A stretch of DNA of 26,191 bases from a virus. Shown here piece by piece: positions 5,345 through 24,344 of this stretch. Each line of letters starts with the position of its first letter. Position 1 is the stretch's first letter. The translations under genes and the position numbers were made by a program. The notes beneath the pieces are model-generated. The model was not told the DNA's origin, ran no database searches, and saw only the letters and a list, made by a program, of their open reading frames with translations. Location of the stretch: positions 1 to 26,191 of the IMG/VR virus record IMGVR_UViG_3300025647_000233; one strand, 5' to 3'.

Positions 5345-5722
5345 ATGGCAATCAGATTCAAAGGTTTTAGTACCATTAACAAGTATAAAAAATTTACATT
5401 AACTGATTATGAATTAGTTAAGCGTGATTTATTAAATCACTTTTCTATTAGAGAAGGCCAGTTACCAGGACGCCCGGACTTTGGAACTAAGTTGTGGAAT
5501 TTTATTTTTGAACCATCAACTACAGATATTCATAGACAGATTAAATCAGAAGTTGAACGTATTGTAAAATATGATCCAAGAATTAATCTTAACGATATTG
5601 TAATTTCAACCGACGAAAATGGTATTATATTGGAGTTAGTTGTTACTATAATACCAAACATCAATCCTCAAGTTCTTGAACTTAAATTCGACGAAGAATC
5701 GCAAACAGTCCGATACCTATAA
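5345..5722 (+). CDS. 25: Baseplate wedge/sheath initiator, gp25 (GPW/gp25 family)
   Basis: This protein has 125 residues, about the usual family length. The conserved core is visible: KRDLLNHFSIREGQLPGRPD followed by FGTKLWNFIFEP (residues about 27-56), then a helix with VERIVKYDPRINLNDIVIS, and a last strand pair ending ELKFDEE. The R-P-x-F-G...F-E-P pattern is the family hallmark. In T4 and in P2 (gpW) this small protein sits on the baseplate wedge and nucleates sheath assembly around the tube. It starts four bases after the previous stop with no clear Shine-Dalgarno, so reinitiation is likely. It lies directly before gp6, the same order as W-J in P2-type tails. Confidence 0.93.
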   Translation: MAIRFKGFSTINKYKKFTLTDYELVKRDLLNHFSIREGQLPGRPDFGTKLWNFIFEPSTTDIHRQIKSEVERIVKYDPRINLNDIVISTDENGIILELVVTIIPNINPQVLELKFDEESQTVRYL

Positions 5723-5782: not shown

Positions 5783-8700
5783 ATGGCTACAACTTCACGT
5801 CAAACTACAATATTTGGTATCGAGGATTGGAAAAGAATCTATCAAACATACCGAGAAGCTGACTTCCAATCGTATAATTTTGAAACTTTACGCAAAAGTT
5901 TTGTAGATTACCTTCGTCAGTACTATCCAGAAACATTTAATGATTTTGTAGAATCAAGTGAATTTGTAGCATTATTGGATCTGATTGCCTTTATGGGACA
6001 GAGTCTAAGTTTTCGTGTTGATTTAAATAGTCGCGAAAACTTCTTAGACACAGCCGAACGTCGTGACAGCGTAGTTAATCTGGCTAAACTAATTGGGTAC
6101 ACTCCAAAGAGAAATCAATCATCTCGAGGATTCTTAAAGATTACAGCAATTAGTACGACAGAGAATGTTAGAGACTATAACAGAAATAATTTAGCAAATA
6201 TTACGGTAAAATGGAACGACCGATCTAATCCCGATTGGCAAGAACAATTTAAAGCTGTTGTTAACGCTATACTTGTTAGTAGCCAAACGGTAGGAAATCC
6301 AGGACATAGTGCTTCGCTATTAGGAATTAATACTAGCGAATATTCTATTAATCAAGCACAAGGATTCTTACCAGTTATTCCTTATAGTGCAACAGTTGAC
6401 AATATTAATATGAATTTTGAAGTTATCAGCGGTTCGAGCGTTAATAAAAGTTACATTTACGAGCCAAGCCCACGCACTGGTGCTGATTTTAATATGCTGT
6501 ATCGTAATGACGGCTTAGGATTTGGTAGTAAAAATACAGGCTACTTTTTCTACTTCAAGCAAGGCGGATTGCAATCAAGAGATTTTGTATTAAGCGAACG
6601 AATTTCAAATCGAGCAGTTGATGTTAATATCGAAGGTGTCAACGACAACGATGTTTGGTTATATCGAATTAATCCAAATACAGGCGAAATCATAGAAGAG
6701 TGGACGCAAGTCGAAAACATTTATGGAACTTCAACACAAACAACTGTAGCCGATAGAAAGCTATTTTCAGTTTCAAGCCGAGCCAATGATCAAATTACAT
6801 TAAACTTTGGTGATGGCGTATTCAGTCAAATTCCAGTAGGAACATTCCGTGTATTCGTTCGAAGCAGCAACGGTTTGGTCTACGTTATTAATCCAGATGA
6901 AATGCAAAGCATTGATGTATCAACAACATATGTTAGTCGTACCGGAAGACTAGAAACAGTAACGTTCACAGTAGGTTTACAAGAAAATGTCTCAAATAGT
7001 CGTGCAAGAGAAACACTGAGCGATATTAAAAATAGAGCACCTGCTCGTTTTTATACGCAAAACCGAATGGTAAACGGAGAAGATTACAATAACTTTCCAT
7101 ATACAAAATTTAACAGTATTATTAAAAGTAAAGCAGTTAACAGATCAAATGTAGGTACAAGTCGTTATTTAGATTTAGTTGATCCAACCGGAAAGTACTC
7201 ATCTGTTAATAGTTTTGGTTCTGATGGTGCATTATATAAAGATATTTCAGAATCCAGCTTTGGATTTACTTTTGTTGATAAAAATGATATTGAAAGTGTA
7301 ATTAGAAATCAAGTCGAGCCAACACTAGCTAGCCGACCAAGTATACAATTTTATTACGATCAATTTGATAGATTTGACCTAACAAAGTTTGATATGTATT
7401 GGAATTTAAGTACCAGTGGTGTTAACGAAACTACGGGATATTTTATTGATTCATCAGGAATCCCAATGACAATTGGCACAGGAATTGGCGATGATCGACA
7501 ATTTTTAATTGAAAATTGTTTAGTAAAGTTTACGGCGCCTGCTGGTCAGTATTTTGATAATAATAACAGACTAAGGACAGGAACGCCAACTGCACCCGGC
7601 GACAAATTAAGAATATGGGCTAGTATTAAAGATTTAATCGGTAACGGCACTAACGGCGGGCTGGGCAATGACAGCGATGGTATCGGACCGGTAACCATTA
7701 ATAATTACGTACCTACGGGTTCTGTTGCAAACCTGGTTATTCCGGTATTTAACACCGACCTTGCAACAAGTTTTGAACAATTAATATTAGCTCAGATTGA
7801 ATTGTACAGAAATTTTGGTATTGGTTATAACAATAAGTCCGGCACATGGTATATTATTTCAAGTAATAATCTTGATGCAGATAGCAATTTCAGCTTAGCC
7901 TTTGCGCAGGATTCTACATCTTCGGGCCTCGACGCCAGTTGGCTAGTAAAATTTATTAGTACCGGTACTAGTTATACAGTTACTTCGAGAGCTCTTGACT
8001 ATTATTTTTCAAGTGTATCAGAAACGCGATTTTTCTTTGATGATAGCCGTGCAGTATATGATACCAAAACTGGTAAAGTGGTAAATGATTTCGTACGAGT
8101 GCTAAAAACCAATAGTCAACCAGACAGTAATAATCCATTGAGTAATGATTATGTATTAGATATTATCGGACAAACTGTTGAATCTGATGGATTTGTTAAT
8201 GATTTTAATGTACTAATTAGTTTTGCTGATACAGACTCAGACAATATTCCGGATAATCCAGATTTTTTCGATGATATAATTGCACCAACAGTTAACCCTG
8301 ATTCAAAATATGTGTTTTTTGAACAAACAATTGATTTTGATAATTTAGAACGTTGGTTACCACTAGGATCGGGTGTTGTTAATGTTAATTATGGAACTGA
8401 AAATGAAATTAATCTCGCTAAGAGTGAATATGCCAATGGACAGATATTTTACGCTTATACAGATCAGAAATTCTTTGTTCTAACAATTAGTAATAATATC
8501 AGAACAATTACCGAAACCACTGGATATAGATCATATGTTGGTCGTAGCGATATACAATTCCAGTATAAGCATAATAGTCCAGAAACCAGACGAATTAATC
8601 CAGGTGTTACTAATATCATTGAATTGTTTGTGGTTACTGCTAGTTACTATGCTGATTATCAAAAGTATATTTCGGATACAACAAATACCGTTGAAGAACC

Positions 8701-9169
8701 AACACCGCCAACAATCGACGAACTTTCTCTTCAATACGAGTCGTTAAACGATAGTAAAATGTTGTCTGACAACATTATTTTTAATAGTGTTACTTTCAAA
8801 CCATTGTTTGGCGATAAAGCAAACACTGCATTGCAGGCCTATATTAAAGTTGTTAAAGTTCCAGGAAGTATTGTAAGTAATAGTGAAATTAAAAGTCGTG
8901 TAATTGAAACTATTAACAACTATTTTAATATAGAAAATTGGGATTTTGGCGATACATTCTATTTTACAGAGTTAGCGTCATACATTCACAGCGAGCTTGG
9001 TTCAATGGTAAATTCAATTATACTTTTACCGAAAGATACAACCAAATCATTTGGACATTTATATGAAATTAAGTCTACGCCAAACGAAATTTTTGTTAGT
9101 GCTGCGACAGTAAATGACGTTATTATTATCGATGATTTAACATCAAGCCAATTAAGAATAACACAATAA
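5783..9169 (+). CDS. 6: Baseplate wedge protein gp6 (baseplate J-like), enlarged
   Basis: gp6 forms dimers that ring the baseplate and, with gp7, make up the core wedge that triggers contraction. The N-terminus is typical: FESL-like helices, then FVALLDLIAFMGQSLSFRVD, NSRENFLDTAERRDSVVNLA, and KLIGYTPKRNQSSRG (residues about 65-125). Another conserved segment, NRAPARFYTQNRMVNGEDYN, lies at about 417-437. The C-terminal J-type domain (about 1010-1128) includes AYIKVVKVPGSIVSNSEIKS, INNYFNIENWDFGDTFYFTE and LGSMVNSIILLPKD. T4 gp6 has about 660 residues, whereas this has 1128. The extra length lies mainly between about 480 and 990, a Tyr/Asp/Asn-rich beta segment with no family I recognise, which may be a surface decoration. 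The gene follows gp25 and is followed after 16 bases by the giant wedge protein. Confidence 0.9.
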   Translation: MATTSRQTTIFGIEDWKRIYQTYREADFQSYNFETLRKSFVDYLRQYYPETFNDFVESSEFVALLDLIAFMGQSLSFRVDLNSRENFLDTAERRDSVVNLAKLIGYTPKRNQSSRGFLKITAISTTENVRDYNRNNLANITVKWNDRSNPDWQEQFKAVVNAILVSSQTVGNPGHSASLLGINTSEYSINQAQGFLPVIPYSATVDNINMNFEVISGSSVNKSYIYEPSPRTGADFNMLYRNDGLGFGSKNTGYFFYFKQGGLQSRDFVLSERISNRAVDVNIEGVNDNDVWLYRINPNTGEIIEEWTQVENIYGTSTQTTVADRKLFSVSSRANDQITLNFGDGVFSQIPVGTFRVFVRSSNGLVYVINPDEMQSIDVSTTYVSRTGRLETVTFTVGLQENVSNSRARETLSDIKNRAPARFYTQNRMVNGEDYNNFPYTKFNSIIKSKAVNRSNVGTSRYLDLVDPTGKYSSVNSFGSDGALYKDISESSFGFTFVDKNDIESVIRNQVEPTLASRPSIQFYYDQFDRFDLTKFDMYWNLSTSGVNETTGYFIDSSGIPMTIGTGIGDDRQFLIENCLVKFTAPAGQYFDNNNRLRTGTPTAPGDKLRIWASIKDLIGNGTNGGLGNDSDGIGPVTINNYVPTGSVANLVIPVFNTDLATSFEQLILAQIELYRNFGIGYNNKSGTWYIISSNNLDADSNFSLAFAQDSTSSGLDASWLVKFISTGTSYTVTSRALDYYFSSVSETRFFFDDSRAVYDTKTGKVVNDFVRVLKTNSQPDSNNPLSNDYVLDIIGQTVESDGFVNDFNVLISFADTDSDNIPDNPDFFDDIIAPTVNPDSKYVFFEQTIDFDNLERWLPLGSGVVNVNYGTENEINLAKSEYANGQIFYAYTDQKFFVLTISNNIRTITETTGYRSYVGRSDIQFQYKHNSPETRRINPGVTNIIELFVVTASYYADYQKYISDTTNTVEEPTPPTIDELSLQYESLNDSKMLSDNIIFNSVTFKPLFGDKANTALQAYIKVVKVPGSIVSNSEIKSRVIETINNYFNIENWDFGDTFYFTELASYIHSELGSMVNSIILLPKDTTKSFGHLYEIKSTPNEIFVSAATVNDVIIIDDLTSSQLRITQ

Positions 9170-9185: not shown

Positions 9186-12100
9186 ATGGCACGTGTTCGT
9201 ACAGTTGACTTTTTGCCGGAAATATTTAAAACCGATGTAAATCAAGAATTTCTTGCAGCAACGCTTGACCAATTAATACAAAAACCAAAATTAAAACAGG
9301 TCGAAGGATATATTGGTCGTCGGTTTGGACCAGGCGTTAATTATACAGATAGTTATGTATTAGAGCCAACAAATTTACGAACACATTATCAACTTGAGGC
9401 TGGAGTAGTATCACAAGATGATATCGGTAAAGCAGTAGACGCTATTACATATCCAGGGTTAATTGATGCTATTGCATTAGCCGGAGGCAATGTAACTCGA
9501 CACGATAGACTCTTTAAGTCAGAAACATACAGTTGGGATCCACTGATAAATTTTGATAAGTTTATTAATTACGGACAATACTATTGGGTTCCCGAAGGGC
9601 CAATGACGGTCGATGTTTTCTCTACTACTATTGCTTTAGTTGACGACTTTGATGTATCCGTAACAAATAATGTTTATAATATTTCTGGAACATCGGGTTC
9701 TAATCCTACTATTACATTGGTTAGAGGTGGGAATTATACATTTAGTGTTGATAGCGGTAACTTTTGGATTCAAACACAGCCTGGAGTTGACGGCAAATTA
9801 GATTTCGCAGACAATAGATCAAGTCGCGACGTTTTAGGTGTGCTTAACAACGGTTCAAATAGCGTTACCTTTAATGTGCCAATGGCAGACGCCCAGGATT
9901 TTTATCATAACTTAACAGACATTGGACAGGTTGATTTAGTAACAAATGATCGGTTTGATAGTATCAACAATAGACTAGTATCTGAGGTAGGTTCTATCGA
10001 TGGAATCATTGATCTTGATGGTAGAACCATTGCTTTCATAAATCCGGCCCCAGGGAATTCAGAGGATCTGGGATGGCAACGTTTGTCGATGTTTGATAAC
10101 AGCGAGTATGATGATACGCTATTTTCAGAAACAGAATATTTAGATACAAACGATGAACGATATGCTATATTTAGAATTCGTTATATTACACCACCTGGTG
10201 GAACTAGTGCCGAAACATATATTAGCTTAGAAAAATTATCAGACGTAAATCAATTTGAAAAATTTAATGTTGGTTACGGTAATGAGTTCAATGGACTTAA
10301 CTTTTTTAAAAATGCCGAAGGCAAATTTGAACAAATTCCATTATTAACGTCGGCAATTAGCGTTTTATATTATCAAGACGGATCGACTAGTAATAGATTT
10401 GGCATTATTAAGTTAGTTGATCAAGAAGGTGCCGAAACGCTAGACATTGCAGATATTATAGGAAAAGAAACATACACCAGTCCAAATGGCGTTGTATTTA
10501 CAAATGGACTAAAAGTAAAATTTACAGGCAATGTAGTTCCGACGACTTACGAAAATAAAACATACTATGTTGAAGGAGTTGGCGAAGCTATTCAACTTGT
10601 TTTAGATGAAAATTTAATTACTCCTGGTCCTTGGTTTGATAACGTAATTAACACTGACAATCAGCCACAAGAACTAGAATATCTTACAGTTAATAGAGGA
10701 AGTAATGATTTAAATCCGTGGAGCAGAGGTAATCGTTGGTTCCACAAAGATGTAATTAATGCAGCCGCTGAATACAATAATACGGTTGCTGTAATTGATA
10801 ATGAATTTAGAGCTAAAAGGCCAATTATTGAATTTGATGCTGGGTTAAAACTTTATAACTTTGGTACCAATGGTATTGCACCAATTGATGTAATTGATTT
10901 TACCCAAACAGATGCTCTATCAAATGTACACGGTACTGCTGGTCTAATAGTTGACGGGTATACTCTAACGACAGGTTCGAGAGTCATTTTTGCTAACGAC
11001 GAAGACAGCAATGTTAGAAATAAGATTTATCGAGTTCAAATGGTTGATCCTGATGACGACTCTACAGAATACGGAACAATTATTAATTTAATACCAGCTG
11101 ACGATGCGATAGTTGTTGAAAACGATGTAGTCACTTGTGTCAATGGAACTACACTAATTGGAACGCAATATACATTCGACGGTACTACCTGGACACCATC
11201 ACAAAGTAAAACAACAACAAATCAAGCACCGTTATTTGATGTATTTGACGAAAACGGTTATAGTCTAAGTAACGAAATAGCATATAACAACACAACATTT
11301 TCCGGAACAGAATTATTTTCTTATAAAATTGGAACAAGCGCAACTGTTGATTCAATTCTTGGGTTTAGCTTAACTTATTTGAATATTGATAATATTGGCG
11401 ATATTGTTTTTGAAAATGATTTTTATAATGATACGTTTAATTACGATAATGTAATTGGTGCCAACGTTAACTTGGGGTTCTTGAGAAAGTATGCAGATAG
11501 AACTTCATATACTTCGCATGTTGGTTGGAAAACATCTGCTGAAACAAATTGGCAAAGACAAGTATTTACGTATACGTACAACGGCAGTGATTTAGTACTT
11601 AATGTTGTGCCCAAGACTGATTTAAACGTGCCAGCAATCAAAGTTTATGTGAATAATAAATTTGTTAGACCAGCGGCGTATACATATCGCACTACCGCAT
11701 CTAACACATACATTACGTTTAATAATGGATCAATATCATTGAACGATGTAGTACAAGTTAAAATTATCAGTGACCAGGCGAGTTCAAGTGCATATTATGA
11801 GACACCAAGCAATCTTGATAAAAATCCATTTAACGAATCTTTAGATACATTGTCACTTGGAACAATTAGAAACCATTACACATTATTAACTGAAAATCTT
11901 AATAATTTTTCTGGCGTTAGTAACGGAGCAAATAATACAAGAGATATAGGATATCTCTCTAGCTATGGTGATGTTATTGTTCAACATTCTGCTCCAACTC
12001 CGCTAGCAGCGCACTTGTATAGAAACGAAAACTTTAATTTCTTTGATTCGGTTGAGTACTGTGCTAGACAGTATGAAAAATTTAAGTATCGTTTACTTGA

Positions 12101-15100
12101 TTGGGTAGCGAATACTGAAACCTATAATAAGACTCCAGCGGAACTTCTTGATGAAGCAATGCTGGATTTAAATCAAGGAAAAACATTATCTGATTCGTTC
12201 TATCTAAGTAATATGTGTCCTACTGGCAATGATTATACAGAAATAACACACTCAGTGACGTTGGTTAGTACAAACGATTTTGAAACTAACAATGTATATG
12301 ATTTCACTAAGGCAACCACTGCTGGGCTATTAATTTATTTAAATGACACATTATTAACTAAGGATTATGATTATACAGTTGCTACTGATGGACCACGTGT
12401 TACATTCCTGACAACGCTTACCGACGGCGATATTATTACCATCAAAGAGTTTCAATCAACTTATGGAAATTATGTTCCGGAAACTCCAACAAAACTTGGA
12501 TTATTTCCAAAATTCCGACCAGAAATTATAACAGACGACACATACACAGAAACTCAGACAATGATTCAAGGGCATGACGGCTCTCTCACAGTTGGGTTTG
12601 ATGATATTAGAGACGAAGTGTTGCTCGAGTTCGAAACAAGAATTTTTAATAATATTAGCATTGATCCAGCAGCCAGCCTGCCAATGGAACAAAACGACAT
12701 TATACCAGGACAATTTAGAAATACCGATTACACGGATACTGAAATTAGTGAAATTATTAGTGCAGAATTTTTAAATTGGGTAGGATGGCACCGATTAGAT
12801 TATAAATCGCAAAATTATTCAAAAGATAATAAATGGACGTGGAATTATTCATCTGCAACAAGTAAAATTGATAACAATGTCCTTAAAGGACATTGGAGAG
12901 GAATATACCGTTACTTGTTTGACACAGATCGCCCACACACACATCCATGGGAAATGTTAAGTTTCTCAGAAAAGCCAGACTGGTGGGAAGATAGATATGG
13001 TCCGGCACCTTATACCTCAGGTAACTTAATTTTGTGGGAAGATCTCGAACTAGGGAAAGTTGCTGATCCAGATAATGAATATTACAAAACAAATTGCGCA
13101 CGTGAAGGTTTAACATCAATTATTCCAACAGATAGCGAAGGAAACCTACTAGACCCAATGACAGTTATTGTTAAGTCCTATGTAGAAACCGCGTTTGAAA
13201 GAAGTTGGAATTCCGGCGACGGCGCACCAGTTGAAACTGCCTGGAGACGCTCAAGCGCCTGGCCGTTTGCTTTACAAAAAATTTATGCGTTAACACACCC
13301 AGCGAAATACTTTGCATTAGCTGTTGATGTTGACCGATATACTTACAATCCAACTATTGCTCAATATGCATATGATTCAAAGTACAAACTCAATCCTAAG
13401 AATGTTGATGTAGTTGATACAGATAATCCAAAACATAGCTATTTAAATTGGATCATTGATTATAACTTGAATTATGGTGTGCAGTCAAGCGCAGACATTG
13501 CTGATTCGTTAAGTAAACTTGATGTCAGACTTTGCTATAGAATGGCCGGATTCACCGATAAAAAATATTTGAAAATTTTTACTGATAAAAGTGCTCCAGA
13601 TAGTACTAATACCAGTCTGTTAATACCAGATGAAAGCTACCAGGTTTTATTATATAAGAACCAGTCATTTGGTGATCTTCAATATAGCAGCATCATGGTA
13701 CAACGTACTGATAACGGTTATGCAGTTTTCGGCAACAGCATTACACATCCATATTTTAGAATTCTCAAGAGCACAAACAACGGAAATTACGAAAATATAA
13801 CTGTCGGTAGTCAACGAATTAGAATACCTAATGATTTTACAAATCAAGTAGTCAGAGTTCCTTACGGATATACATTTAAGACTATTAACGGAGTGGTTGA
13901 TTTTGTTGTAAGTTATGGTGCTTTCTTAAAACGTCAGGGTATGAAATTTGATGATATTGAAAATAATTACATTTTAGATTGGCCTAGAATGGCGCAGGAG
14001 TTTGTTTATTGGGCCAACCAAGATTGGATTGTTGGCAGCGCCATTAACTTAAATCCATCAGCAAATGTCATTGAATGTGAAAACAATTATTCAATCATTG
14101 ATAGTTTAGATAATTTGTCATTCGATGAACGCCCATTGGATCAAAACCGTCAGACATTAAATAAGAAAGATTATACTGTGGTGCGTTTAGGGAACAATTT
14201 TAAGATTAAAATGTTAGCTGACAAATCACTAAGTTATTTGAGAGTTCGGAAAACTAGCTACGAACATCTTTTAATCTTAGATAATACAAGTATTTTCAAT
14301 GATTTATTGTATCAACCAGTTACTGGATTGCGTCAACAGCGGGTTAAGCTCAATGGTTTTGTAACATTTGATTGGAATGGACAGCTTGACGCCCAAGGAT
14401 TTATTTTAAATCAGGATAATGTTCCTGACTGGGACGTTAATTTAAGTTACAATAAAGGGGATATGGTCCAGTATAAAAATTCATATTGGGTAGCAGCATC
14501 TAAAATATCTCCAACAGGTGAAGATTTCAATTTTGACGAATGGACTAAGATTGATTACAATTTGATTAATAAAGGTCTTCTTCCAAACATCAGTAATAAA
14601 GCTGGACAAATTAGGAATTTCTACAATCACGATGTTATTAATTTAGAATCAGATGCCGATTTATTAGGTTTAGGTATTACAGGGTTTAGAAAACGTTCTT
14701 ATCTCGAGTCTTTGAATCTTTCGGATATTAGTCAAGTTCACATTTACGAAAATCTAATTGGACAAAAAGGAACTCCGGATAGTGTTAATTTGTTCAAAGG
14801 AGTTGAATTTGACAAGGAAGTGTCTGAGTACGAGATTAACGAAAACTGGGCTATTAAACGTGCAGCATACGGCGCAACAGACAATAAACGTTATATCGAA
14901 TTAGAGTTAGATAGCAGAAGTCTAACCTCAAACCCGAGTATAATTGAAATCAATGTTAGCGGAACAGATTCGGATGCTAATCAACTAATTGATATTGACA
15001 ATATCTATCGCCAAAGTGTTAAAAATACAACAATTAACATTCTTCCTGAACGGACCGAAACAGTAACCGATGTTGGAATGCCAACATCTGGATTTGTGGA

Positions 15101-18100
15101 TATCAACGATGTTGATATTATTCTGTTCAGTTTATCTGATATTGAATCTATAAACGATCAACTCGATTTAGTTAAACAAGGATCGATTATATGGGTTGCA
15201 AAATCAAATCGTTACGATTGGAATATCTATCGTTGCCAATCATTACAACCTAAGATTGTAAGTTTTACTGATAACCTAAACGGTACTTTAACTGTTGAAT
15301 TCAGTGGAACTCATAGTTTATTGGCTGGTGAGTATATTATTGTTAAATTCTTTGATGAAGCATTAAACGGGATTTATAAAGTAAATTATGTTGATAATAG
15401 TAAACTTGTTGTTGTTTCTGGAAGCATTGTCGGTCAAGATACAGTAGTAGAAGGTAGTGGTGTTGCTTTTGTATTACAAACAGCTAAGGTAACCCAACCT
15501 AAAGATATTGCGAATACAATTTATAACAATAATTTATTTGCTGGAGACAAGATATGGGTTACTGAAACCGTTAACGGTAATTGGCAGGTATTTGAAAAAA
15601 CAAACCCAAATTTACCAGTTGAACATATTATTACACCTAATGTCGCAGCTAATACCAATTTTGGATACAGTTTAGCACAGTCGTTAAATGAAAATGGAGC
15701 TATTGTTGGTGCACCAAACGATACCTCGGGAATTGGTGCATTGCATTGTTATAATAGAATCAACGATGATTTTGTTTTCACTAATAAGTTAACCTTGGGT
15801 GCCACAGGAACACAAGGTTACGGTAACGATGTGTCATTAGCATCAACATGGGGTGTTGCCGGTGCAAGCCTAAGTGATAGCGAACAAGGTTATGCAGTAG
15901 TAGTACATAAAAATCAAGATACCGATCAATTTGAAGAGTGGCAATTGCTTAATTTGTCGGCAAGTGTAACAGGATCTGACGAATTTGGTCATGCAGTTAC
16001 TATTAGCGACGACGAAAACTGGATCTATGTCAGCGCATTAGATTCGTCAATGGTATATGCATTTAATAAAGTTACATATCAAACACAAACAGTATCTGTA
16101 AATGCAGTTGGTGGCCAAGCGACATATGATTTTAGCGATTATATTGAAGCAGATACTGATATACAAGTTATTGTTGAAGTTAACGGTATAGTTCTCGATC
16201 CAATAGATTACGTTTTTGCAGCAGGCACGCTAACGTTTTTGACAATCCCACTGGAAGGGCAGTCAATTGTAGTAACCAGAAGAACAAATACAACGTTAAC
16301 TGGTGATGGATCAACCTTGGGATTTAGCATCGCTAATTTATATACAGCGCAGAGTATTGATGCATTTAGTGTGTTTGATCCAAGTGGCAACTTATTACGT
16401 CCGTATACGGATTATACCTATTCTGCAGGCTCTATCAACTTTACTGTTGCACCAGGTAACGGTGATATGTATTCGGTGAGAGCTAAAGATTATTATCGGT
16501 ATGTTGGAGTTGTTGAAGCTTCACCGCCGGCCAGCGAAGCTTTTGGCAGTACTATAGCAACTACCAGCGATGGACAGCAGATATTAATTGGTGCACCGGA
16601 GGCAACCGTCTCTGGACAAGTCAATGCTGGTAAGGTATATGTTTACGAAAGAAAGGTTGAACGTTTTGTAATAACAGATGCCACAGAAAAAGAATATACA
16701 ACAACCGCAGCAATTAGTAATCTAAATAATGTTAAACTTAATAACGTGTTATTAATAAACGGATTATACAATGTTGACGATCAATATACAATCGATTCGG
16801 GAACAAAAACAGTTACAATTGATAATAATGTAACGTTAACAGTTGGATCAACAATCGATGTTGACACAAACGTTTTTGCAGAAGTACAAACTTTAACTTC
16901 CGACAGATACTCTGCAAATTCGTATTACGGAAGTAGTCTAAGTATCTGTAGAACAGATTGTTCAATGTATGTTGGCGCACCAAACGATAGTTATATTTTA
17001 CCTGATGCAGGAAGTGTCACTAGATATTTAAATAGTTCTCGTGTATTTGGTACTATCACCGGAAACACATCAAACCCAAGCGTAACCATTGGACACAGCA
17101 TTCGTATTAATAATATTGAAATCATTTTTACAGGAACTACGTTATCTACGGTAGTTGAAGATATTAACAATGCTATTGTACCAAATGTAAGTGCTACAGT
17201 AAGTTCGTCAAATGAGTTGGTCATTAATATTATTAATAGAGACGAAGCTCCGTCATTGAGTATGATGACAGTAATGCCTGGTTTGGGAACTGGTTTTACA
17301 GATCTTGGTCTAGAGCCATTTGTACAAACACAATATATTGTTAGTCCTCGACCTGAAGAATATAGTTATTTTGGGCATAGTGTCCACGTTGATTACTCTG
17401 CTACTAATTTAATCATTGGTGCTCCTCGAGCAACAGCAATATTGTTATCAACGTTTGATTATGAAAAGGATTCAACAGAAGGATACGAAACTATCTTTGA
17501 TTCTGGTACTACTAGAATTGTCGATCCTGTTACCGATAGCGGTGCAGTTTACACATATGATTTATTGCCAAGTTCAACATATGGTGAATCAGGCAGTTTT
17601 GTATTTGGGCAGCAAATATATGACCCTGTTCTAGGAGAAACAGATGTTGATGGTAACAAACTTAGAACATCAGATCAATTTGGTTATCGGGTCCATTACA
17701 CAGATGGAGCATTGCTAGTAACCTCTCCAGGATATGATTCAGAATCTGTAACAGATATTGGACGCCTATCTGTATTCAACAACAATGAAAATAAAACTGC
17801 CTGGGACGTAATCAAAGAACAGGCATTAACTGTTGATAGTAATTTAATCAATAGCGTATACATCTATAACAAAGAATCAAGTCAAATTGAAACATACTTA
17901 GATTATATTGATCCATTAAATGGAAAACTATTAGGTACAGTTCGCGATAATTTGGATTATGTTGGTGCAATAGATCCAGCAATTTACAATAGTTTAGATA
18001 ACACAGGCATAATTTGGGGCAAAGACCGGGTAGGGCATTTATGGTGGGATACAACCAATGCTAGATTCTTAGATTATAATCAAGAAGACATTGTATACAG

Positions 18101-21100
18101 CGCCAAAAATTGGGCATCTCTAATTCCTGGATCATCGATAGATGTCTATGAATGGGTTGAAAGTCAAATGCCACCGAGCCAATATGCCGGTGATGTTAAA
18201 AATGTTGACGAATATACACTCATTACATCGGTTAACTCGTCGAAAACTGTAATTAGTAAGTATTATTTCTGGGCACTCAAGACAACTAATACAAATACCG
18301 CAGCAGGAAAAACGTTAAGTGCAGAGTTGATTTCGCAATACATAGAAAATCCAATTAGTTCTGGTATTCCATTTGCTGCGCTAATGCATAAAAACATTAT
18401 TGCATTATACAATGTTAGTGATTATATCAGAGATAACTTACAAAGCGTGTTACACATTAACTATAATAAAATACAAAGTGATAATAATGTTTTTGTTGAG
18501 TACGACTTAATCAAAGAAGAAAATAAAAATGGATTCTTAACTAATAATTTATATAGAAAACTACTTGATAGTTTTTGCGGTGTTGATACATTAGGTAATT
18601 TAGTCCCAGATCAAACTTTAAAAGAAAGTGTGCGTCATGGTGTGTCATTTAGACCTAGACAAACAATGTTCATTGACCGTCAAACGGCATTGAACATTTA
18701 TCTAACAAAAGCTAATAGGGTTATTAAACAATATCCATTTAGCGAACTTAGAAATTTTGACTTGTTATCATCTGAAGAAGAAATCCCTACAGAAGGGTCT
18801 GGCGCTTGGGATCTTGCAGTTGCTGATTTAACCGAGTTAAGCTACCAAGAACCGGTAGTTCTTGGAATAGGCTATAAAATATTAGTACTATCTGACTCTA
18901 GTCAATTTGGATTATGGACAATATACGAAGTACAAGATGATTATACCATGTCGCGTATTCAAACACAAGAATATGATTGTAATCGTTATTGGAGCTACGT
19001 TGATTGGTATGCCGACGGATATACAGCGTCGATGAAGCCAAATTATAAAGTCAATACTTATAGCGAGATTCAAACATTACAAAATGCTGTTGAAGGAACA
19101 CTTGTTAAGGTTATTTCAAATAGTAACGGTAAATGGGAATTGTACTCTTTAACTAATTCAAACTGGACTCGAGTAGGTCTAGAACAAGGTACGGTGCAGA
19201 TTAGCACCACTGATTGGAATTGGGAGTTAGAGAAATCAATTACCGACGCTGCGCCTACATATGAACTAAGACAAATTTTAAAATCAATTAATGAAGAAAT
19301 ATTAATTGGAGATTTCCTATTAGAAAGAAATAGATTATTAATTAGTACGTTTAACTATATCCAGTCAGAGTTTGATGTTGAAATTGATTGGCTAATGAAA
19401 ACTAGTTTAATTGACGTAACACATAAGGTTAGAGACCTAGATCAATATGACATTTATAGAAAGGATAACCAAGATTTTGTTATTGATTACATCAAGGAAG
19501 CAAAACCGTATCATGTTAAAATTAAGGAATTCTTATTAAGATACGACGGTTCAGAGCAGATGTTAGGTGACCTAGTTGATTTTGATTGCCCAAGTACATA
19601 TAGCACTGCATTTAGCAAGTTTATAAGTCCTATTCTAGATGACGATATTGCTATCCTTGAAACGGATCAATCAAATTTTGAGCATACCGAACTGGTCTGG
19701 CAAACACAGCCGTGGAAATCATGGTTTGATAACCATAAACTTTCGATTAGTGAAGTTGTTGTTACCAATGGGGGCTCAAACTATACAGTTGCACCATTGG
19801 TTATAGTCGACGGCATTGCTGATCGAGCAGCCGAAATGACTGCTGTATTAAACGAATATGGCGAAGTTGGATCTATTACAATAAATGATCCAGGTGCTGG
19901 TTATAGAACCACTCCTATCATCTCGTTTACTGGCGGAAACGGAACTGGCGCTGTTGCAGTAGCATATACTAAACAAGATGTCGTTAGAAGTTTTACTACC
20001 ACTATTAAGTATGACCGCTACGAGTATGATTCTCAGATACTTATATGGGAAGATATTAATTGGGATGCGGCTCCTGCATTAGAAGAAAACCAACTAGTAA
20101 GATACAATGATCTAGTTTATAGAGCTATAAATGCAGACGGAAGTACAGTAACAGATCCGGATTTTAATCCTGATGAATATGAATTAGTTGATCCTTCTAC
20201 GCTCAGTGGTATTGATCGTACATTAGGTTTTTACACAGCTGATATTAACGAGCTCGGCTTAGATTTAGCATTACTAATTGACGGACTAACATATCCTGGA
20301 GTTCAATTAACTGGACCAAGTTTTGGTCAGAGCAGTGGATACGATGTTGGATATTTTGATATTAATCTTTGGGATAATTTGGAATACGGTCCTGAAGGTC
20401 TTCCGACATATAGCAAGAGCATATTAGATAATGAAATCTTTACATCTTTCACAGGCTCATATCCAGGTGTTGATTTGTCAGGAATTGAATCAGTACAAGC
20501 AACCGCTATATCTACGGTATCAGGAGGTTCACTTGATTCACTTATAATGGTAGACATAGGTAAAGGTTATGATCCAGATGTTCCACCAACTGTAAGTATA
20601 AGTGCACCAGCTGATAATATATCAGCAACAGCGGCAATTGCATCAGATGGCGATATAATCACTGGTATTACAGTTACTAAACCAGGGTTAGGTTATGTTA
20701 CCACTCCAACTGTAACCATTATTGAGGCTGATCCTACTCCGGGAATAACTGCAACCGCAGAAGCTATTATTTCCAGTGGTAGTGTTACATCGGCACCAAT
20801 GGTTCATACCGGTAATGGATATGATAGTGTACCAACTGTTACATTCTCGGATCCTCCGTCGGTTGTAGGTGCAAGAGCTCAAATGACATCATCGATTGCA
20901 AGTGGCCAGGTAAATTCTTGTACAATTATTGCCGGAGGCAATTCGTATCTAACACCGCCGACGGTTACTGTTAGTGCGCCAGCAGCAAGCGTTAATGCAA
21001 CTGCTAGCGCAACAAGCACCGCATTTGAAGTTCACGGTCTTGCATTAAATCTAGTAGGTAACTATTACAGCTCGGCTCCATCGGTAACCATTTCGCCACC

Positions 21101-24100
21101 AACAGAAACTGCACAACAAGCAGTATTGGTGCCGGTTATGAGTGCAGAACAAGTAACGAATTTTACAGTTTCTAATGCTGGATATTTGTATGATACATCA
21201 CCAACAGTTACAGTGGTACCAGCAGCTCCAACTCCGGGTATAAATGCGGCAGCAACGTGTGTGTTAGATCCTGATTCAATTGGTTTTGATGGTGTTGATG
21301 CTAGCGGCAATGGATTTGATGCAGCAGTATTTGATGGCGAAGGAGGCGTAGGAACATTCACAATTACTGTCAGTGGTTCCGGATATACTGTAGCGCCGGT
21401 CGTGACTCTTAGCGCACCAGATTTATCTGGTGGCACACAAGCAACTGCTGTAGCAACTATTAGTGGCGAAACAGCACCGTTGTATGCAGGCCAAGGATCG
21501 GTGTTATCGATTAGTGTAGTTGTTTCTGGGTCAGGATATACTACCGCACCAAGCGTTTCAATCGCAGCACCGGATTCAAGCATTAATCACGGAACAGGTG
21601 CAAGTATTACAGCAACTAGACTAAGTGATTCAACATTAGAATTCCATTTAAACAGCTCAGGTAACTACTATGATATCACTCCAACAATAACAATAGATCC
21701 GCCGACAGCGGCTAGAACAGCAACAGCAACCACCACAGTGCTCAATGGTTTGGTGCAATCAATAATTCTAACAGATGCAGGTTGGGGTTATATTGATAAT
21801 CCAACAGTGACCATCGGCGCACCAGACACATCACCAGTGAACGCTGTAATTACAACTACACTTACTGGAGGCGTAGTTACAGGATATACAATTACAAATC
21901 CGGGTGCTGGATATATTACAGCACCGACATTAGTCGTTGATGCACCTGCAGGTGTTGCATCAGATATAGCCACTGGAACAGCAACAGTAGTTGATAGAAA
22001 AGTTACAGGAATTGTAATTACAAATTCTGGCGCGAGTTATTCAACACCACCGACTGTTACAATCGAAGCACCAACAGGTTTATCATATCATGGATCGGGT
22101 GCTACTGCTACTGCTACAATTGTAAATAATAGAGTGTCAGCTATTGCGGTTACCAATCCAGGTAGCGGCTATGATATTGCTCCAACTATTACAATATCTG
22201 AACCGACTCGTACTACGTCAAGAGCATTGGCTACTGCGAACATTGTTGGTGGTTCGATTACTTCGCTTAACATTGTTGATGCAGGATATGGCTATTTAAC
22301 AGCGCCGACGGTAACCATTGGACCACCAACTGATGTAGAGCCTGATTCAGATATTGTTGGTGGCCAGTTTGTTGATGATTACAATTCACATGCACCGGAA
22401 GAACTTGTTCCTGGTGCAACATTTGACACGTTAGACTTCAAGGTATTTACAAAACCTGGATATGATTACTCAGGATCAGGTTTTGGCTTTAGTGTTACTA
22501 GTGAAAACTTCACATATCAAACGAACAGAACTACATTTAGTTTTGCTGGGTTAGAACTGCACCCGTCAACGATTATTGTTTATAATTCAACAGCTGGAAT
22601 TAGATTATATGAAGGCATACAATATACTGTTGATTGGGCAAATATGACTGTTTCAATTAATAGTGGAGTATCTGACGGCGAAGAAGTTAAGATATTTGTG
22701 TACAGCATTGGAGGTGGAAATCAGCATTACCGTAATGTGTACCTAGGTAACCAGTTTGACACAGTACTAACTGTACCTGTAGAATTTACAGATGTTGATT
22801 CAATACTGGTATTAATTAATGGGTCAGAAGTTACAAACTACACATATATTGATAATAATAACCATGGCACTGATATTATATTTGATACAACGTATACTAG
22901 CAGTGATTTTATTAACGTAACTGTATTTGGTGAATTAGTAGCAGATGATTCGACTGCAACTGATTATGGATACAGTTACCCAGAAACAGAAGAATTTATT
23001 GCCGACGGATCAACAACAACATTTACATTAAATGTTGATACTAGATTTAAAAATAGAGAAAATTTAATAGTCGAAGTAAATGGTCGAAGACTGCGTCCTT
23101 TTGCTTGTGCTAAACATGCGCATGATGGTAGTGTCAGAGATTTTGTATTGCCGTTCAGTGAAGAATCGGGCATTGATCAATCAACATTAACAGATGCAGA
23201 TGTTGTAGTATACGAAGGCGAAGTTAGATTAATTGCAAACGAAGATTATGTGTTATCGCCGGCTGATGGTAGCTCTGGAAGATATATTTCGATTATTGGT
23301 GATTTGCCACCAGTTAATACATATGTTGATGTTTATGTATTAGCAGGTGCTGATTATTCAGTAAGCACTGACGGAACTACCTTAACAATTACAGGTATTA
23401 CATTAAGCGCAGGCGATCATATTGCAGTTACTAGTTGGCACGACGTTAGAGAACAAGATATTTGTACACACGTATTTGAAGGTCCAACATATACAACTGT
23501 TGCATCAAAAGAGTTGTTTGATGCATATGGGTTCGATTCAGATTTATTTGACAAGACTGTTGGTGTAGAATCGTCAATTAATTATTTCAATTTAGATAGA
23601 CCGCTATCTAATAGTGATCGGCTCTGGGTTACTGTAAATGGACGTAGGTTGTTGCCTGGCGCTGAGTATTCTATTGTTGATAATAGTAGATATTTGTTAA
23701 TTGCAGGAGGTTCGATTGCTGATACAGACGTGGTAGCTGTTACATCTATAACTAACGTTGTTGTTCCAGACACATTAAGTTTTAGAATTTTTAAAGATAT
23801 GCGCGATAATGTAGCAATTTATAAGAACAATCACGACACAAACACGTTCCTGACACAACCATTACGTTGGACAGATGACGTAATATATGTTGATAATGCA
23901 AGTAATCTCGGAGAGCCAGATTTAAACGCTGCTGTATTTGGCATTGTTGAAATAAATGGCGAACGTATAACATATAGAAATAGGGATGTTGAAAATAATA
24001 CACTCAGTGGTTTGCGTAGAGGAACCGCTGGAACAGGCATTCAAAGATATCATGATTCTCTCTCGGTTGTTAGCGATCTAAGTAAAGGACAATTACTCAA

Positions 24101-24344
24101 TCAGAATTATTCAACAATCGGCTGGAATTTTAGCAGCGAATTTAACGAAGGTGATATTGTAAAAGTAGGATTAGTCCACTACGTTGCAATTCAAAATGTA
24201 CCTGCTGAGATTGAAATTAATAATACAGCATACTGGCAAATATACGATAAAATTTGGTACGCTCCTGGAGCAACCTCGGCCTCTAACGGTATACCGTTAC
24301 AACAACAAACAACTGTTGAGGCTAAATTCCTTAGAGGCCGGTGA
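9186..24344 (+). CDS. Giant baseplate wedge protein (gp7/P2-gpI-like N-terminus) with adhesin-like modules
   Basis: One uninterrupted frame of 5052 codons. The N-terminus (VDFLPEIFKTDVNQEFLAAT and on to residue about 60) resembles the start of tail proteins of the P2 gpI/gp7 wedge type. It is followed by segments I recall from marine T4-like phages: WDPLINFDKFINYGQYYWVP (about 115-135), NPWSRGNRWFHKDVI, RPIIEFDAGLKLYNFG, HTHPWEMLSFSEKPDWW, and AWRRSSAWPFALQKIYALTH. Later modules are a candidate carbohydrate-binding motif at about 1755, seven FG-GAP propeller blades at 2159-2870, and a wedge-like region at about 2950-3510. After these come two GxGY beta repeats (about 3524-3587), a YPGV segment, fourteen more repeats (3785-4384), and SHAPEELVPGATFDTLDFKV. 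Fibre-like beta units run to the end, with NGERITYRNRD and LSGLRRGTAGTG near 4930. It directly follows gp6, where gp7/gpI is expected. The fold assignments are by eye; the wedge role is an inference. Confidence 0.85.
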   Translation: MARVRTVDFLPEIFKTDVNQEFLAATLDQLIQKPKLKQVEGYIGRRFGPGVNYTDSYVLEPTNLRTHYQLEAGVVSQDDIGKAVDAITYPGLIDAIALAGGNVTRHDRLFKSETYSWDPLINFDKFINYGQYYWVPEGPMTVDVFSTTIALVDDFDVSVTNNVYNISGTSGSNPTITLVRGGNYTFSVDSGNFWIQTQPGVDGKLDFADNRSSRDVLGVLNNGSNSVTFNVPMADAQDFYHNLTDIGQVDLVTNDRFDSINNRLVSEVGSIDGIIDLDGRTIAFINPAPGNSEDLGWQRLSMFDNSEYDDTLFSETEYLDTNDERYAIFRIRYITPPGGTSAETYISLEKLSDVNQFEKFNVGYGNEFNGLNFFKNAEGKFEQIPLLTSAISVLYYQDGSTSNRFGIIKLVDQEGAETLDIADIIGKETYTSPNGVVFTNGLKVKFTGNVVPTTYENKTYYVEGVGEAIQLVLDENLITPGPWFDNVINTDNQPQELEYLTVNRGSNDLNPWSRGNRWFHKDVINAAAEYNNTVAVIDNEFRAKRPIIEFDAGLKLYNFGTNGIAPIDVIDFTQTDALSNVHGTAGLIVDGYTLTTGSRVIFANDEDSNVRNKIYRVQMVDPDDDSTEYGTIINLIPADDAIVVENDVVTCVNGTTLIGTQYTFDGTTWTPSQSKTTTNQAPLFDVFDENGYSLSNEIAYNNTTFSGTELFSYKIGTSATVDSILGFSLTYLNIDNIGDIVFENDFYNDTFNYDNVIGANVNLGFLRKYADRTSYTSHVGWKTSAETNWQRQVFTYTYNGSDLVLNVVPKTDLNVPAIKVYVNNKFVRPAAYTYRTTASNTYITFNNGSISLNDVVQVKIISDQASSSAYYETPSNLDKNPFNESLDTLSLGTIRNHYTLLTENLNNFSGVSNGANNTRDIGYLSSYGDVIVQHSAPTPLAAHLYRNENFNFFDSVEYCARQYEKFKYRLLDWVANTETYNKTPAELLDEAMLDLNQGKTLSDSFYLSNMCPTGNDYTEITHSVTLVSTNDFETNNVYDFTKATTAGLLIYLNDTLLTKDYDYTVATDGPRVTFLTTLTDGDIITIKEFQSTYGNYVPETPTKLGLFPKFRPEIITDDTYTETQTMIQGHDGSLTVGFDDIRDEVLLEFETRIFNNISIDPAASLPMEQNDIIPGQFRNTDYTDTEISEIISAEFLNWVGWHRLDYKSQNYSKDNKWTWNYSSATSKIDNNVLKGHWRGIYRYLFDTDRPHTHPWEMLSFSEKPDWWEDRYGPAPYTSGNLILWEDLELGKVADPDNEYYKTNCAREGLTSIIPTDSEGNLLDPMTVIVKSYVETAFERSWNSGDGAPVETAWRRSSAWPFALQKIYALTHPAKYFALAVDVDRYTYNPTIAQYAYDSKYKLNPKNVDVVDTDNPKHSYLNWIIDYNLNYGVQSSADIADSLSKLDVRLCYRMAGFTDKKYLKIFTDKSAPDSTNTSLLIPDESYQVLLYKNQSFGDLQYSSIMVQRTDNGYAVFGNSITHPYFRILKSTNNGNYENITVGSQRIRIPNDFTNQVVRVPYGYTFKTINGVVDFVVSYGAFLKRQGMKFDDIENNYILDWPRMAQEFVYWANQDWIVGSAINLNPSANVIECENNYSIIDSLDNLSFDERPLDQNRQTLNKKDYTVVRLGNNFKIKMLADKSLSYLRVRKTSYEHLLILDNTSIFNDLLYQPVTGLRQQRVKLNGFVTFDWNGQLDAQGFILNQDNVPDWDVNLSYNKGDMVQYKNSYWVAASKISPTGEDFNFDEWTKIDYNLINKGLLPNISNKAGQIRNFYNHDVINLESDADLLGLGITGFRKRSYLESLNLSDISQVHIYENLIGQKGTPDSVNLFKGVEFDKEVSEYEINENWAIKRAAYGATDNKRYIELELDSRSLTSNPSIIEINVSGTDSDANQLIDIDNIYRQSVKNTTINILPERTETVTDVGMPTSGFVDINDVDIILFSLSDIESINDQLDLVKQGSIIWVAKSNRYDWNIYRCQSLQPKIVSFTDNLNGTLTVEFSGTHSLLAGEYIIVKFFDEALNGIYKVNYVDNSKLVVVSGSIVGQDTVVEGSGVAFVLQTAKVTQPKDIANTIYNNNLFAGDKIWVTETVNGNWQVFEKTNPNLPVEHIITPNVAANTNFGYSLAQSLNENGAIVGAPNDTSGIGALHCYNRINDDFVFTNKLTLGATGTQGYGNDVSLASTWGVAGASLSDSEQGYAVVVHKNQDTDQFEEWQLLNLSASVTGSDEFGHAVTISDDENWIYVSALDSSMVYAFNKVTYQTQTVSVNAVGGQATYDFSDYIEADTDIQVIVEVNGIVLDPIDYVFAAGTLTFLTIPLEGQSIVVTRRTNTTLTGDGSTLGFSIANLYTAQSIDAFSVFDPSGNLLRPYTDYTYSAGSINFTVAPGNGDMYSVRAKDYYRYVGVVEASPPASEAFGSTIATTSDGQQILIGAPEATVSGQVNAGKVYVYERKVERFVITDATEKEYTTTAAISNLNNVKLNNVLLINGLYNVDDQYTIDSGTKTVTIDNNVTLTVGSTIDVDTNVFAEVQTLTSDRYSANSYYGSSLSICRTDCSMYVGAPNDSYILPDAGSVTRYLNSSRVFGTITGNTSNPSVTIGHSIRINNIEIIFTGTTLSTVVEDINNAIVPNVSATVSSSNELVINIINRDEAPSLSMMTVMPGLGTGFTDLGLEPFVQTQYIVSPRPEEYSYFGHSVHVDYSATNLIIGAPRATAILLSTFDYEKDSTEGYETIFDSGTTRIVDPVTDSGAVYTYDLLPSSTYGESGSFVFGQQIYDPVLGETDVDGNKLRTSDQFGYRVHYTDGALLVTSPGYDSESVTDIGRLSVFNNNENKTAWDVIKEQALTVDSNLINSVYIYNKESSQIETYLDYIDPLNGKLLGTVRDNLDYVGAIDPAIYNSLDNTGIIWGKDRVGHLWWDTTNARFLDYNQEDIVYSAKNWASLIPGSSIDVYEWVESQMPPSQYAGDVKNVDEYTLITSVNSSKTVISKYYFWALKTTNTNTAAGKTLSAELISQYIENPISSGIPFAALMHKNIIALYNVSDYIRDNLQSVLHINYNKIQSDNNVFVEYDLIKEENKNGFLTNNLYRKLLDSFCGVDTLGNLVPDQTLKESVRHGVSFRPRQTMFIDRQTALNIYLTKANRVIKQYPFSELRNFDLLSSEEEIPTEGSGAWDLAVADLTELSYQEPVVLGIGYKILVLSDSSQFGLWTIYEVQDDYTMSRIQTQEYDCNRYWSYVDWYADGYTASMKPNYKVNTYSEIQTLQNAVEGTLVKVISNSNGKWELYSLTNSNWTRVGLEQGTVQISTTDWNWELEKSITDAAPTYELRQILKSINEEILIGDFLLERNRLLISTFNYIQSEFDVEIDWLMKTSLIDVTHKVRDLDQYDIYRKDNQDFVIDYIKEAKPYHVKIKEFLLRYDGSEQMLGDLVDFDCPSTYSTAFSKFISPILDDDIAILETDQSNFEHTELVWQTQPWKSWFDNHKLSISEVVVTNGGSNYTVAPLVIVDGIADRAAEMTAVLNEYGEVGSITINDPGAGYRTTPIISFTGGNGTGAVAVAYTKQDVVRSFTTTIKYDRYEYDSQILIWEDINWDAAPALEENQLVRYNDLVYRAINADGSTVTDPDFNPDEYELVDPSTLSGIDRTLGFYTADINELGLDLALLIDGLTYPGVQLTGPSFGQSSGYDVGYFDINLWDNLEYGPEGLPTYSKSILDNEIFTSFTGSYPGVDLSGIESVQATAISTVSGGSLDSLIMVDIGKGYDPDVPPTVSISAPADNISATAAIASDGDIITGITVTKPGLGYVTTPTVTIIEADPTPGITATAEAIISSGSVTSAPMVHTGNGYDSVPTVTFSDPPSVVGARAQMTSSIASGQVNSCTIIAGGNSYLTPPTVTVSAPAASVNATASATSTAFEVHGLALNLVGNYYSSAPSVTISPPTETAQQAVLVPVMSAEQVTNFTVSNAGYLYDTSPTVTVVPAAPTPGINAAATCVLDPDSIGFDGVDASGNGFDAAVFDGEGGVGTFTITVSGSGYTVAPVVTLSAPDLSGGTQATAVATISGETAPLYAGQGSVLSISVVVSGSGYTTAPSVSIAAPDSSINHGTGASITATRLSDSTLEFHLNSSGNYYDITPTITIDPPTAARTATATTTVLNGLVQSIILTDAGWGYIDNPTVTIGAPDTSPVNAVITTTLTGGVVTGYTITNPGAGYITAPTLVVDAPAGVASDIATGTATVVDRKVTGIVITNSGASYSTPPTVTIEAPTGLSYHGSGATATATIVNNRVSAIAVTNPGSGYDIAPTITISEPTRTTSRALATANIVGGSITSLNIVDAGYGYLTAPTVTIGPPTDVEPDSDIVGGQFVDDYNSHAPEELVPGATFDTLDFKVFTKPGYDYSGSGFGFSVTSENFTYQTNRTTFSFAGLELHPSTIIVYNSTAGIRLYEGIQYTVDWANMTVSINSGVSDGEEVKIFVYSIGGGNQHYRNVYLGNQFDTVLTVPVEFTDVDSILVLINGSEVTNYTYIDNNNHGTDIIFDTTYTSSDFINVTVFGELVADDSTATDYGYSYPETEEFIADGSTTTFTLNVDTRFKNRENLIVEVNGRRLRPFACAKHAHDGSVRDFVLPFSEESGIDQSTLTDADVVVYEGEVRLIANEDYVLSPADGSSGRYISIIGDLPPVNTYVDVYVLAGADYSVSTDGTTLTITGITLSAGDHIAVTSWHDVREQDICTHVFEGPTYTTVASKELFDAYGFDSDLFDKTVGVESSINYFNLDRPLSNSDRLWVTVNGRRLLPGAEYSIVDNSRYLLIAGGSIADTDVVAVTSITNVVVPDTLSFRIFKDMRDNVAIYKNNHDTNTFLTQPLRWTDDVIYVDNASNLGEPDLNAAVFGIVEINGERITYRNRDVENNTLSGLRRGTAGTGIQRYHDSLSVVSDLSKGQLLNQNYSTIGWNFSSEFNEGDIVKVGLVHYVAIQNVPAEIEINNTAYWQIYDKIWYAPGATSASNGIPLQQQTTVEAKFLRGR
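14448..14556 (+). other. Candidate CBM5/12-like carbohydrate-binding segment in the giant protein
   Basis: Residues 1755-1790 of the giant protein read YNKGDMVQYKNSYWVAASKI, then a loop, then DEWTKI. This is the aromatic pattern Y-x-x-G-D-x-V-x-Y-x-x-x-x-Y/W-x-A...W seen in small chitin/cellulose-binding modules of families 5 and 12. Similar but weaker segments occur near residues 3632 (ENQLVRYNDLVYRAIN) and 4986 (FNEGDIVKVGLVHYVAIQ). Binding is not shown; the motif is short. Confidence 0.4.
15630..17806 (+). other. Seven-blade FG-GAP (integrin-alpha-like) beta-propeller in the giant protein
   Basis: Seven segments share the FG-GAP pattern (F/Y-G-x-x-hydrophobic ... I/V-G-A/S-P/L-x-D): FGYSLAQ...AIVGAPND at residue 2159, YGNDVSL...GVAGASLS at 2212, FGHAVTI...IYVSALD at 2267, FGSTIAT...ILIGAPEA at 2453, YGSSLSI...MYVGAPND at 2581, FGHSVHV...LIIGAPRA at 2729, and FGYRVHY...LLVTSPGYD at 2832. 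Where nothing is inserted the spacing is 53-55 residues, and the larger spacings mark inserted domains. Each blade also has the usual G-x-V-x-x-Y/F strand (GKVYVYER, GAVYTYD, GRLSVFNN). Seven is the count expected for a closed integrin-type propeller. Confidence 0.75.
19756..19945 (+). repeat. First pair of GxGY beta repeats
   Basis: Residues about 3524-3587 of the giant protein contain VVVTNGGSNYTVAPLVIVDG and ITINDPGAGYRTTPIISFTG. They follow the same pattern as the fourteen-copy block that begins about 200 residues later. The intervening residues are a different, apparently conserved wedge segment. Confidence 0.75.
20535..22338 (+). repeat. Fourteen-copy GxGY...PTVTI beta-repeat array
   Basis: Residues about 3785-4384 of the giant protein hold fourteen degenerate copies, averaging about 43 residues, of the pattern V-T-x-x-G-x-G-Y-x-x-x-P-T-V-T-I-x-x-P. 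Examples are ITVTKPGLGYVTTPTVTI, TITNPGAGYITAPTLVV, AVTNPGSGYDIAPTITI and NIVDAGYGYLTAPTVTIGPP. Spacers are rich in Ala, Thr, Ser and Gly. The copies are clearly related as protein but differ strongly as DNA, so this is an old or diversified array and not a recent expansion. Such repeats occur in phage and bacterial surface proteins and probably form a stack or rod of small beta units. Confidence 0.85.
22550..23760 (+). repeat. Fibre-like VNGxxLxPxxxY beta units at the C-terminus of the giant protein
   Basis: At least five imperfect units follow the pattern V-x-V-N-G-x-x-L-x-P-x-x-x-Y-x ... I-x-F/I ... L-x-x-G-D-x-V-x-V. Clear examples are IVEVNGRRLRPFA near residue 4627, VVVYEGEVRLIANEDYV near 4672, and WVTVNGRRLLPGAEYSIVDN near 4814. 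IIVYNSTAGIRLYEGIQYTV near 4463 and VLINGSEVTNYTY near 4540 are looser. Isolated copies also sit earlier, near residues 820, 1049, 2330 and 2396. The pattern is that of small beta-sandwich units common in phage tail fibres. Confidence 0.6.

Follow-up and report, generated by a model that had tools for sequence, protein, structure and literature searches.

Genes at the locus and the giant reading frame

The window, by which we mean the whole 26,191-base IMG/VR record analysed here, is probably a fragment. It carries gp5-like, gp25, gp6 and giant genes in that order, followed by a further conserved gene:

2873..4387, + strand: gp5-like baseplate hub protein (PHROG 13211 'baseplate hub subunit and tail lysozyme', E=4e-37)
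5345..5722, + strand: gp25-like baseplate wedge subunit (PHROG 261 / 43, E about 1e-14)
5783..9169, + strand: gp6-like baseplate wedge subunit, 1,128 aa (PHROG 10646, E=1.6e-284)
9186..24344, + strand: giant ORF, 5,052 aa
24369..25025, + strand: conserved gene 3′ of the giant, 218 aa (PHROG 11259, E=9e-74)

The gp6 of the window shares 31–40 % identity with gp6 of jumbo phages and is larger than that of T4, which has 660 aa. The PHROG 11259 gene keeps its place beside the giant in Atu_ph07, PA5oct, Phosso, SCTP-2 and Vibrio 2.275.O; for PA5oct, the record marks its product (gp357) as seen by ESI-MS/MS. An ORF that runs out of the window at 25076–26191 repeats the motif LWFDSxxGxLKVYNGxxW and weakly matches tail-fibre and virion structural PHROGs. 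In Escherichia phage 121Q (L092:5414-6178), an annotated group I intron-associated ORF lies between gp25 and gp6, upstream of the giant.

The giant ORF opens with an ATG 16 bases past the gp6 stop (9169), with GGAG 11 bases 5′ of the start, and takes up 15,159 of the 26,191 bases (58 %). The first-pass annotation had described a 5052-codon gene over this share of the window, directly following gp6 and preceded by a ribosome site, and the ORF agrees with it on each point, the upstream gene being the PHROG 10646 gp6. The computed mass of the product is 556.6 kDa and its pI 4.4. When the bases of the window were shuffled 50 times, the longest open run was 183 codons, and the five other frames hold 205–670 stops. 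GC content by codon position is 0.46/0.40/0.24, while mismatches against the relative L009 are 0.43/0.37/0.64. Because this relative is collinear with the giant from residue 1 to 5,051, the giant is not an assembly fusion. The 5,052-codon ORF is confirmed as real and not a product of chance.

A jumbo-phage virion protein family with three variable slots

Residues ~6–2850 of the giant matched PHROG 10938 'virion structural protein' (3,324 positions) in pieces with E-values from 1e-121 to 3e-30, and by profile match the giant is a member of this already recorded jumbo-phage virion protein family. Relatives were found in 57 phage records by tblastn, with ~22–33 % identity in the compared regions, and sequence searches returned no relative of known structure. 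IMG/VR contains 75 loci encoding relatives; the gene start is present in 72, and in all 72 gp6 is directly upstream. The giant also directly follows gp6 in the isolates Atu_ph07, PA5oct, RaK2, Phosso, Vibrio 2.275.O, XacN1, Hallingskeid, 121Q, RAS14 (assigned to the family by alignment) and CBB, with SCTP-2 as the sole exception among the isolates examined. In this Salicola phage (L005:5633-14923) a 3,096-aa beta-propeller repeat protein (PHROG 8401) occupies the place of gp6, directly before the giant.

Full-length relatives range from ~3,300 to 6,631 aa, and a length of 5,052 aa is therefore typical for the family. Among the isolates, lengths were 3,326 aa in RaK2, 3,323 in 121Q, 3,857 in PA5oct, 4,449 in Atu_ph07, 4,555 in Phosso, 3,771 in Vibrio 2.275.O, 3,313 in XacN1, 3,330 in Hallingskeid and 3,807 in SCTP-2, and open frames of 3,702 to 6,635 aa were present in 18 IMG/VR contigs with relatives. 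It had been guessed that giant versions may exist in marine phages; giants do exist, in many jumbo phages. The largest relative found (6,631 aa; L254:4-19899, IMGVR_UViG_3300023184_003237) has 2,806 aa past residue 3520 in window numbering. In one contig (L064:3604-9119) the giant is split by a one-base gap relative to a 99.9 % identical contig (L078), probably through sequencing error.

Relatives have been detected in virions. The PA5oct giant (gp355) is marked in its record as seen by ESI-MS/MS. The structural proteome of phAPEC6 includes gp245, of 381.88 kDa, with 17 unique peptides, beside gp244 'baseplate wedge' (PMC7247149); on the basis of its mass and neighbour gene we infer that gp245 is the 121Q-type giant. 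In the CBB proteome, CBB_236 was represented by 21 peptides at 7.7 % coverage (PMC5259590), and CBB gp236 is the giant after gp6. The outcome of the virion proteomics check is thus positive for PA5oct, phAPEC6 and CBB and covers these relatives, the window phage being a metagenomic fragment.

The layout of the family was determined from 29 aligned members, most of them full length and some without a few N-terminal residues, by measuring the spacing between fixed points. In the window giant the following features were distinguished:

9186..9587, + strand: conserved N-terminal block, residues 1–134 (LPEIF..., YQLE..., NYxxYYW), from alignment and near-constant length
9588..10832, + strand: variable slot 1, residues 135–549, with a cupredoxin-like domain modelled at 148–414, from spacing and model
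12231..12455, + strand: predicted small beta domain, residues 1016–1090, as in phage tailspikes and fibre adaptors, from model
14415..14555, + strand: putative CBM5/12-like (chitin-binding type) module, residues 1744–1790, from model and a weak Pfam match
14523..15065, + strand: conserved KG[TS] block, residues 1780–1960, candidate gp7/gpI-like wedge core, from hhalign
15234..15479, + strand: predicted ~80-aa beta-barrel, residues 2017–2098, resembling E1 FCCH and a phage endosialidase stalk domain, from model
15663..17981, + strand: variable slot 2, residues 2160–2932, with FG-GAP repeats (PF14312, E=3e-13 / 2.9e-16)
17793..19745, + strand: second conserved block, residues 2870–3520, with a KPY-type motif at 3440–3442, from alignment
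20493..22346, + strand: fourteen ~42-aa GxGY...PTVTI units in slot 3, residues 3770–4387, 33 % identical on average
22347..24344, + strand: C-terminal part, residues 4388–5052, with a conserved GGxFxxxYxxxxPEELVPG motif and VxVNG domains; 4864–5051 align with L009

Across the 29 members, some segments were near-constant in length, namely those corresponding to residues 1–134 (134–161 aa) and 1150–1257 (105–124 aa), and intermediate segments varied less than the slots, for example 549–1150 (532–908 aa). Slot 1 (residues 134–549) spanned 63–555 aa in relatives, slot 2 (2160–2932) 101–1,089 aa and slot 3 (3520 to the end) 230–2,806 aa. Length variation is confined mainly to these three slots of a conserved scaffold. 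Each phage fills the slots with different modules, mostly adhesin-like. The KPY-type motif is present in most members, XacN1 and RAS14 being without it. While the family itself was already known, the scaffold-and-slots layout is new; neither it nor the KGT lead discussed below was found in the open-licence papers searched, and this slot architecture is worth documenting.

The FG-GAP repeats of slot 2 lie above the curated cut-off of PF14312 (59.8 versus 23 bits). In slot 3, the GxGY units match like repeats in PHROGs 701, 460 and 5342 and are followed by VxVNG-type domains. The array was not found at the equivalent place in the nearest relatives, and it contains no tandem repeat at the DNA level. 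A recent or foreign origin of the array was considered and rejected, given that the rise in GC (0.44) falls at codon positions 1–2, that GC3 is unchanged and that the units have diverged to the identity listed above. Near the C-terminus, positions 23820–24035 (residues ~4879–4950) encode a short module, FGIVEINGERITYxxxxxxTLSGLRRGTAGT, that has similar counterparts in S-SSM7 gp7 and in L078 and L009.

Two AlphaFold models were obtained at middling confidence (mean pLDDT 64 and 71), and their fold matches show shape, not function; in Foldseek searches of both against the PDB every match had E>0.001. The predicted domain at residues 148–414 resembled rusticyanin and other cupredoxins (Z about 8–9.3, about 90 residues, rmsd 2–3). 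The modelled beta domain at 1016–1090 matched CBA120 TSP4 (7rfv; Z 8.1, 64 residues, rmsd 1.7) and the cyanophage A4 tail (9k09; Z 8.2, 70 residues, rmsd 2.4), and that at 1744–1790 matched a Milano baseplate/receptor-binding chain (8fqc; Z 8.1, 45 residues, rmsd 1.2), with a sub-threshold Pfam CBM_5_12 match at E=0.011. For the predicted barrel at 2017–2098, matches were to UBA6 (7sol; Z 10.9, 76 residues, rmsd 2.1) and phi92 endosialidase (4hiz; Z 9.1, 81 residues, rmsd 2.6). Matches to E1 enzymes and laccases as such were set aside, being due to single small domains only.

Sequence comparison with gp7 and gpI

The first-pass annotation had looked to the N-terminus for a match to the wedge family, and this was not supported here. 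No match of residues 1–200 to gpI, gp7 or Tri2 was found, no wedge entry of these types was among the fold matches listed for the N-terminal region, and aligning residues 1–150 by hhalign with the gp7 of T4 and of cyanophage produced no match. Residues 1–115, though conserved, are unfolded in the model with pLDDT <50, so that the lack of a fold match there carries little weight. More broadly, PDB wedge proteins were absent among the fold matches listed for the two models, barring weak low-ranked rows. The earlier reading as a whole is upheld insofar as the giant is a baseplate-region protein after gp6 with virion homologues, and lacks support for the N-terminal wedge match.

The only gp7-like sequence signal in the giant is internal, at residues 1831–1887. 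The jumbo-phage family has a deeply conserved motif, FYxGxIxxKG[TS] (window 1854–1863), kept also in XacN1 and RAS14. T4 and cyanophage gp7 themselves match at 97 % probability via the motif FYxxKG[TI]xxSYxxLFKxLY, and in profile comparisons the best match of the giant falls on the KG motif for both targets. With a 181-column KGT block, which was picked after the motif had been seen, hhalign against the cyanophage gp7 core scored 22.7 compared to 10.4±1.7 for column shuffles (0/100); against T4 gp7 the same post hoc block scored 15.9, which was reached by 2/100 shuffles (P=0.04). When residues 1–2160 were used as the query, P was 0.02 for cyanophage gp7 and 0.33 for T4 gp7.

Comparison of the whole-family profile with T4 gp7 was not significant (probability 0.3 %). 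The Pfam gp7 domains (Gp7_helical, Gp7_5th, Gp7_6th), all three of which match T4 gp7 itself, were absent from the pieces covering the giant, and PF09684 Tail_P2_I gave no match at E 10 in a spliced giant query or in ten jumbo records, with positive controls. No T4 gp7 or Tail_P2_I match was found elsewhere in the large or complete jumbo genomes, the T4 gp7 whole-genome search having been run without a positive control. The post-gp6 genes of Mel-JY01 and LR756511 provided no intermediate, and the IMG/VR relatives of P2 gpI were so similar to one another that no profile could be built from them. Two further candidates were rejected. A cyanophage gp7 HMM match in the Atu_ph07 giant (E=1e-4, residues 880–977) was taken as chance because it lies outside the KGT block and is absent from other members. 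A possible second shared motif (KPY at 3440, IDYINRSRSYY in T4, AKP in P2 gpI) was no better than shuffles and is lacking in XacN1 and RAS14. Membership of the giant in the gp7/gpI family is therefore not established, and it is the KGT block (1780–1960) rather than the N-terminus that is the best candidate lead to gp7.

Proposed role and comparison with known systems

Contractile baseplates contain two gp6-type proteins and one gp7-type protein per wedge, as in phage XM1, in which the gp7 orthologue gp17 bears spikes on an internal loop and at its C-terminus (PMC10457771). Since the jumbo-phage family likewise varies at internal and C-terminal sites, a wedge scaffold with peripheral modules is favoured. 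It is likely that the giant works in place of gp7, and gene order and analogy suggest a wedge subunit in several copies. There would be one giant per wedge and six per baseplate, amounting to about 3.3 MDa. Contact with the gp6 pair may be made by conserved elements of the giant that are unfolded alone in the models, namely residues 1–115 and the KGT block, where pLDDT is low at 1794–1905; segments folding only with gp6 would fit this behaviour, while low confidence alone proves nothing. The rest of the scaffold and its swappable modules would project outward as the baseplate periphery, holding fibres and/or touching the host surface.

Taken as a whole, a wedge protein in the gp7 position, with a conserved scaffold and peripheral host- or fibre-binding modules, is the reading that we consider reasonably probable, if far from assured. 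The adjacency to gp6, the virion homologues and the KGT resemblance are in its favour, as is the failure to find any other gp7 candidate; the non-significant whole-profile comparison, the lack of Pfam gp7 and Tail_P2_I matches and the SCTP-2 giant, without gp6 upstream, count against it. Rather unlikely is an alternative in which the giant, though encoded beside gp6, does not correspond to gp7 and is instead a peripheral protein of the baseplate or an adhesin scaffold. The enlarged gp6 or other proteins would then close the wedge core, with the giant forming a surrounding skirt or fibre network. The added size of gp6 would suit this arrangement, as would the absence of significant gp7/gpI homology over the whole giant and the adhesin or carbohydrate-binding type of most recognizable modules. 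It accounts less readily for the strict gp6 adjacency, for a KGT resemblance that two comparisons both put exactly on the core motif of gp7 and, again, for the lack of another gp7 candidate.

That the giant is instead a polyprotein, cleaved after translation into several virion proteins corresponding to the scaffold and modules, seems improbable. Its extreme length with modular slots could be read in this way and the low proteomic coverage in relatives (7.6–7.7 %) is compatible with cleavage, but neither a protease domain nor a repeated cleavage motif was noticed, and the relatives are listed as one protein in the phAPEC6 and CBB papers. The record being a metagenomic fragment, an assembly fusion or annotation artefact might also be suspected, but the chance of this is negligible, as collinear relatives of ~3,300–6,631 aa, present in numerous isolates and independent contigs, already refute it.

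A stronger form of the gp7-position reading, in which the family would be a gp7-type wedge subunit with its own receptor binding and the three slots a cassette system for host-contact modules, is possible but doubtful. If true, a single giant would stand in for several proteins of the baseplate and fibres. Existing annotation of the giants in RaK2-like jumbo phages and their relatives goes no further than 'virion structural protein' or 'hypothetical protein'; the placement in the gp7 slot, the slot map and a named block that probably contacts gp6 offer structural biologists direct targets, 121Q, RaK2 and PA5oct being growable, and the slots suggest where host-contact modules may be swapped in nature. 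If the giant is not gp7, it still belongs to a very large tail protein family for which sequence found no structurally known relative.

The sizes of the classical counterparts given in the first-pass annotation are accurate (T4 gp7, 1,032 aa; P2 gpI, 176 aa). T4 gp7 shares the post-gp6 place and has a KG[TI] motif resembling that of the giant (T4 734–757, window 1857–1880); however, the giant is 4.9 times longer and has no significant profile match to it and none of its Pfam domains. In T4 gp25 does not adjoin gp6, the order gp25–gp6–gp7 being that of Synechococcus phage S-SSM7. There, the gp7-slot giant SSSM7_101 ('gp7', 3,007 aa) ends a gp25–gp6–giant order as in the window. Both proteins have a similar KG[TS] block, with the gp7 core at residues 173–227 in S-SSM7 and its putative counterpart at 1831–1887 in the window giant, and GxGY repeats, but beyond the KGT block and repeats there is no detectable similarity. 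In P2 gpI, a KGT followed by an AKP motif recalls, by eye only, the KGT and KPY of the giant, whereas its family PF09684 has no match in the giant even at E 10. The closest known system is the set of PHROG 10938 proteins of jumbo phages (RaK2 ORF070, 121Q gp582, phAPEC6 gp245, CBB gp236, PA5oct gp355, Atu_ph07 gp180 and Phosso 294), which share with the window the conserved blocks 1–134, ~500–2150 and 2880–3500, the post-gp6 place and often PHROG 11259 downstream. The window giant differs from these isolate proteins in the content of all three slots, exceeds them in length and carries a long array of GxGY units.
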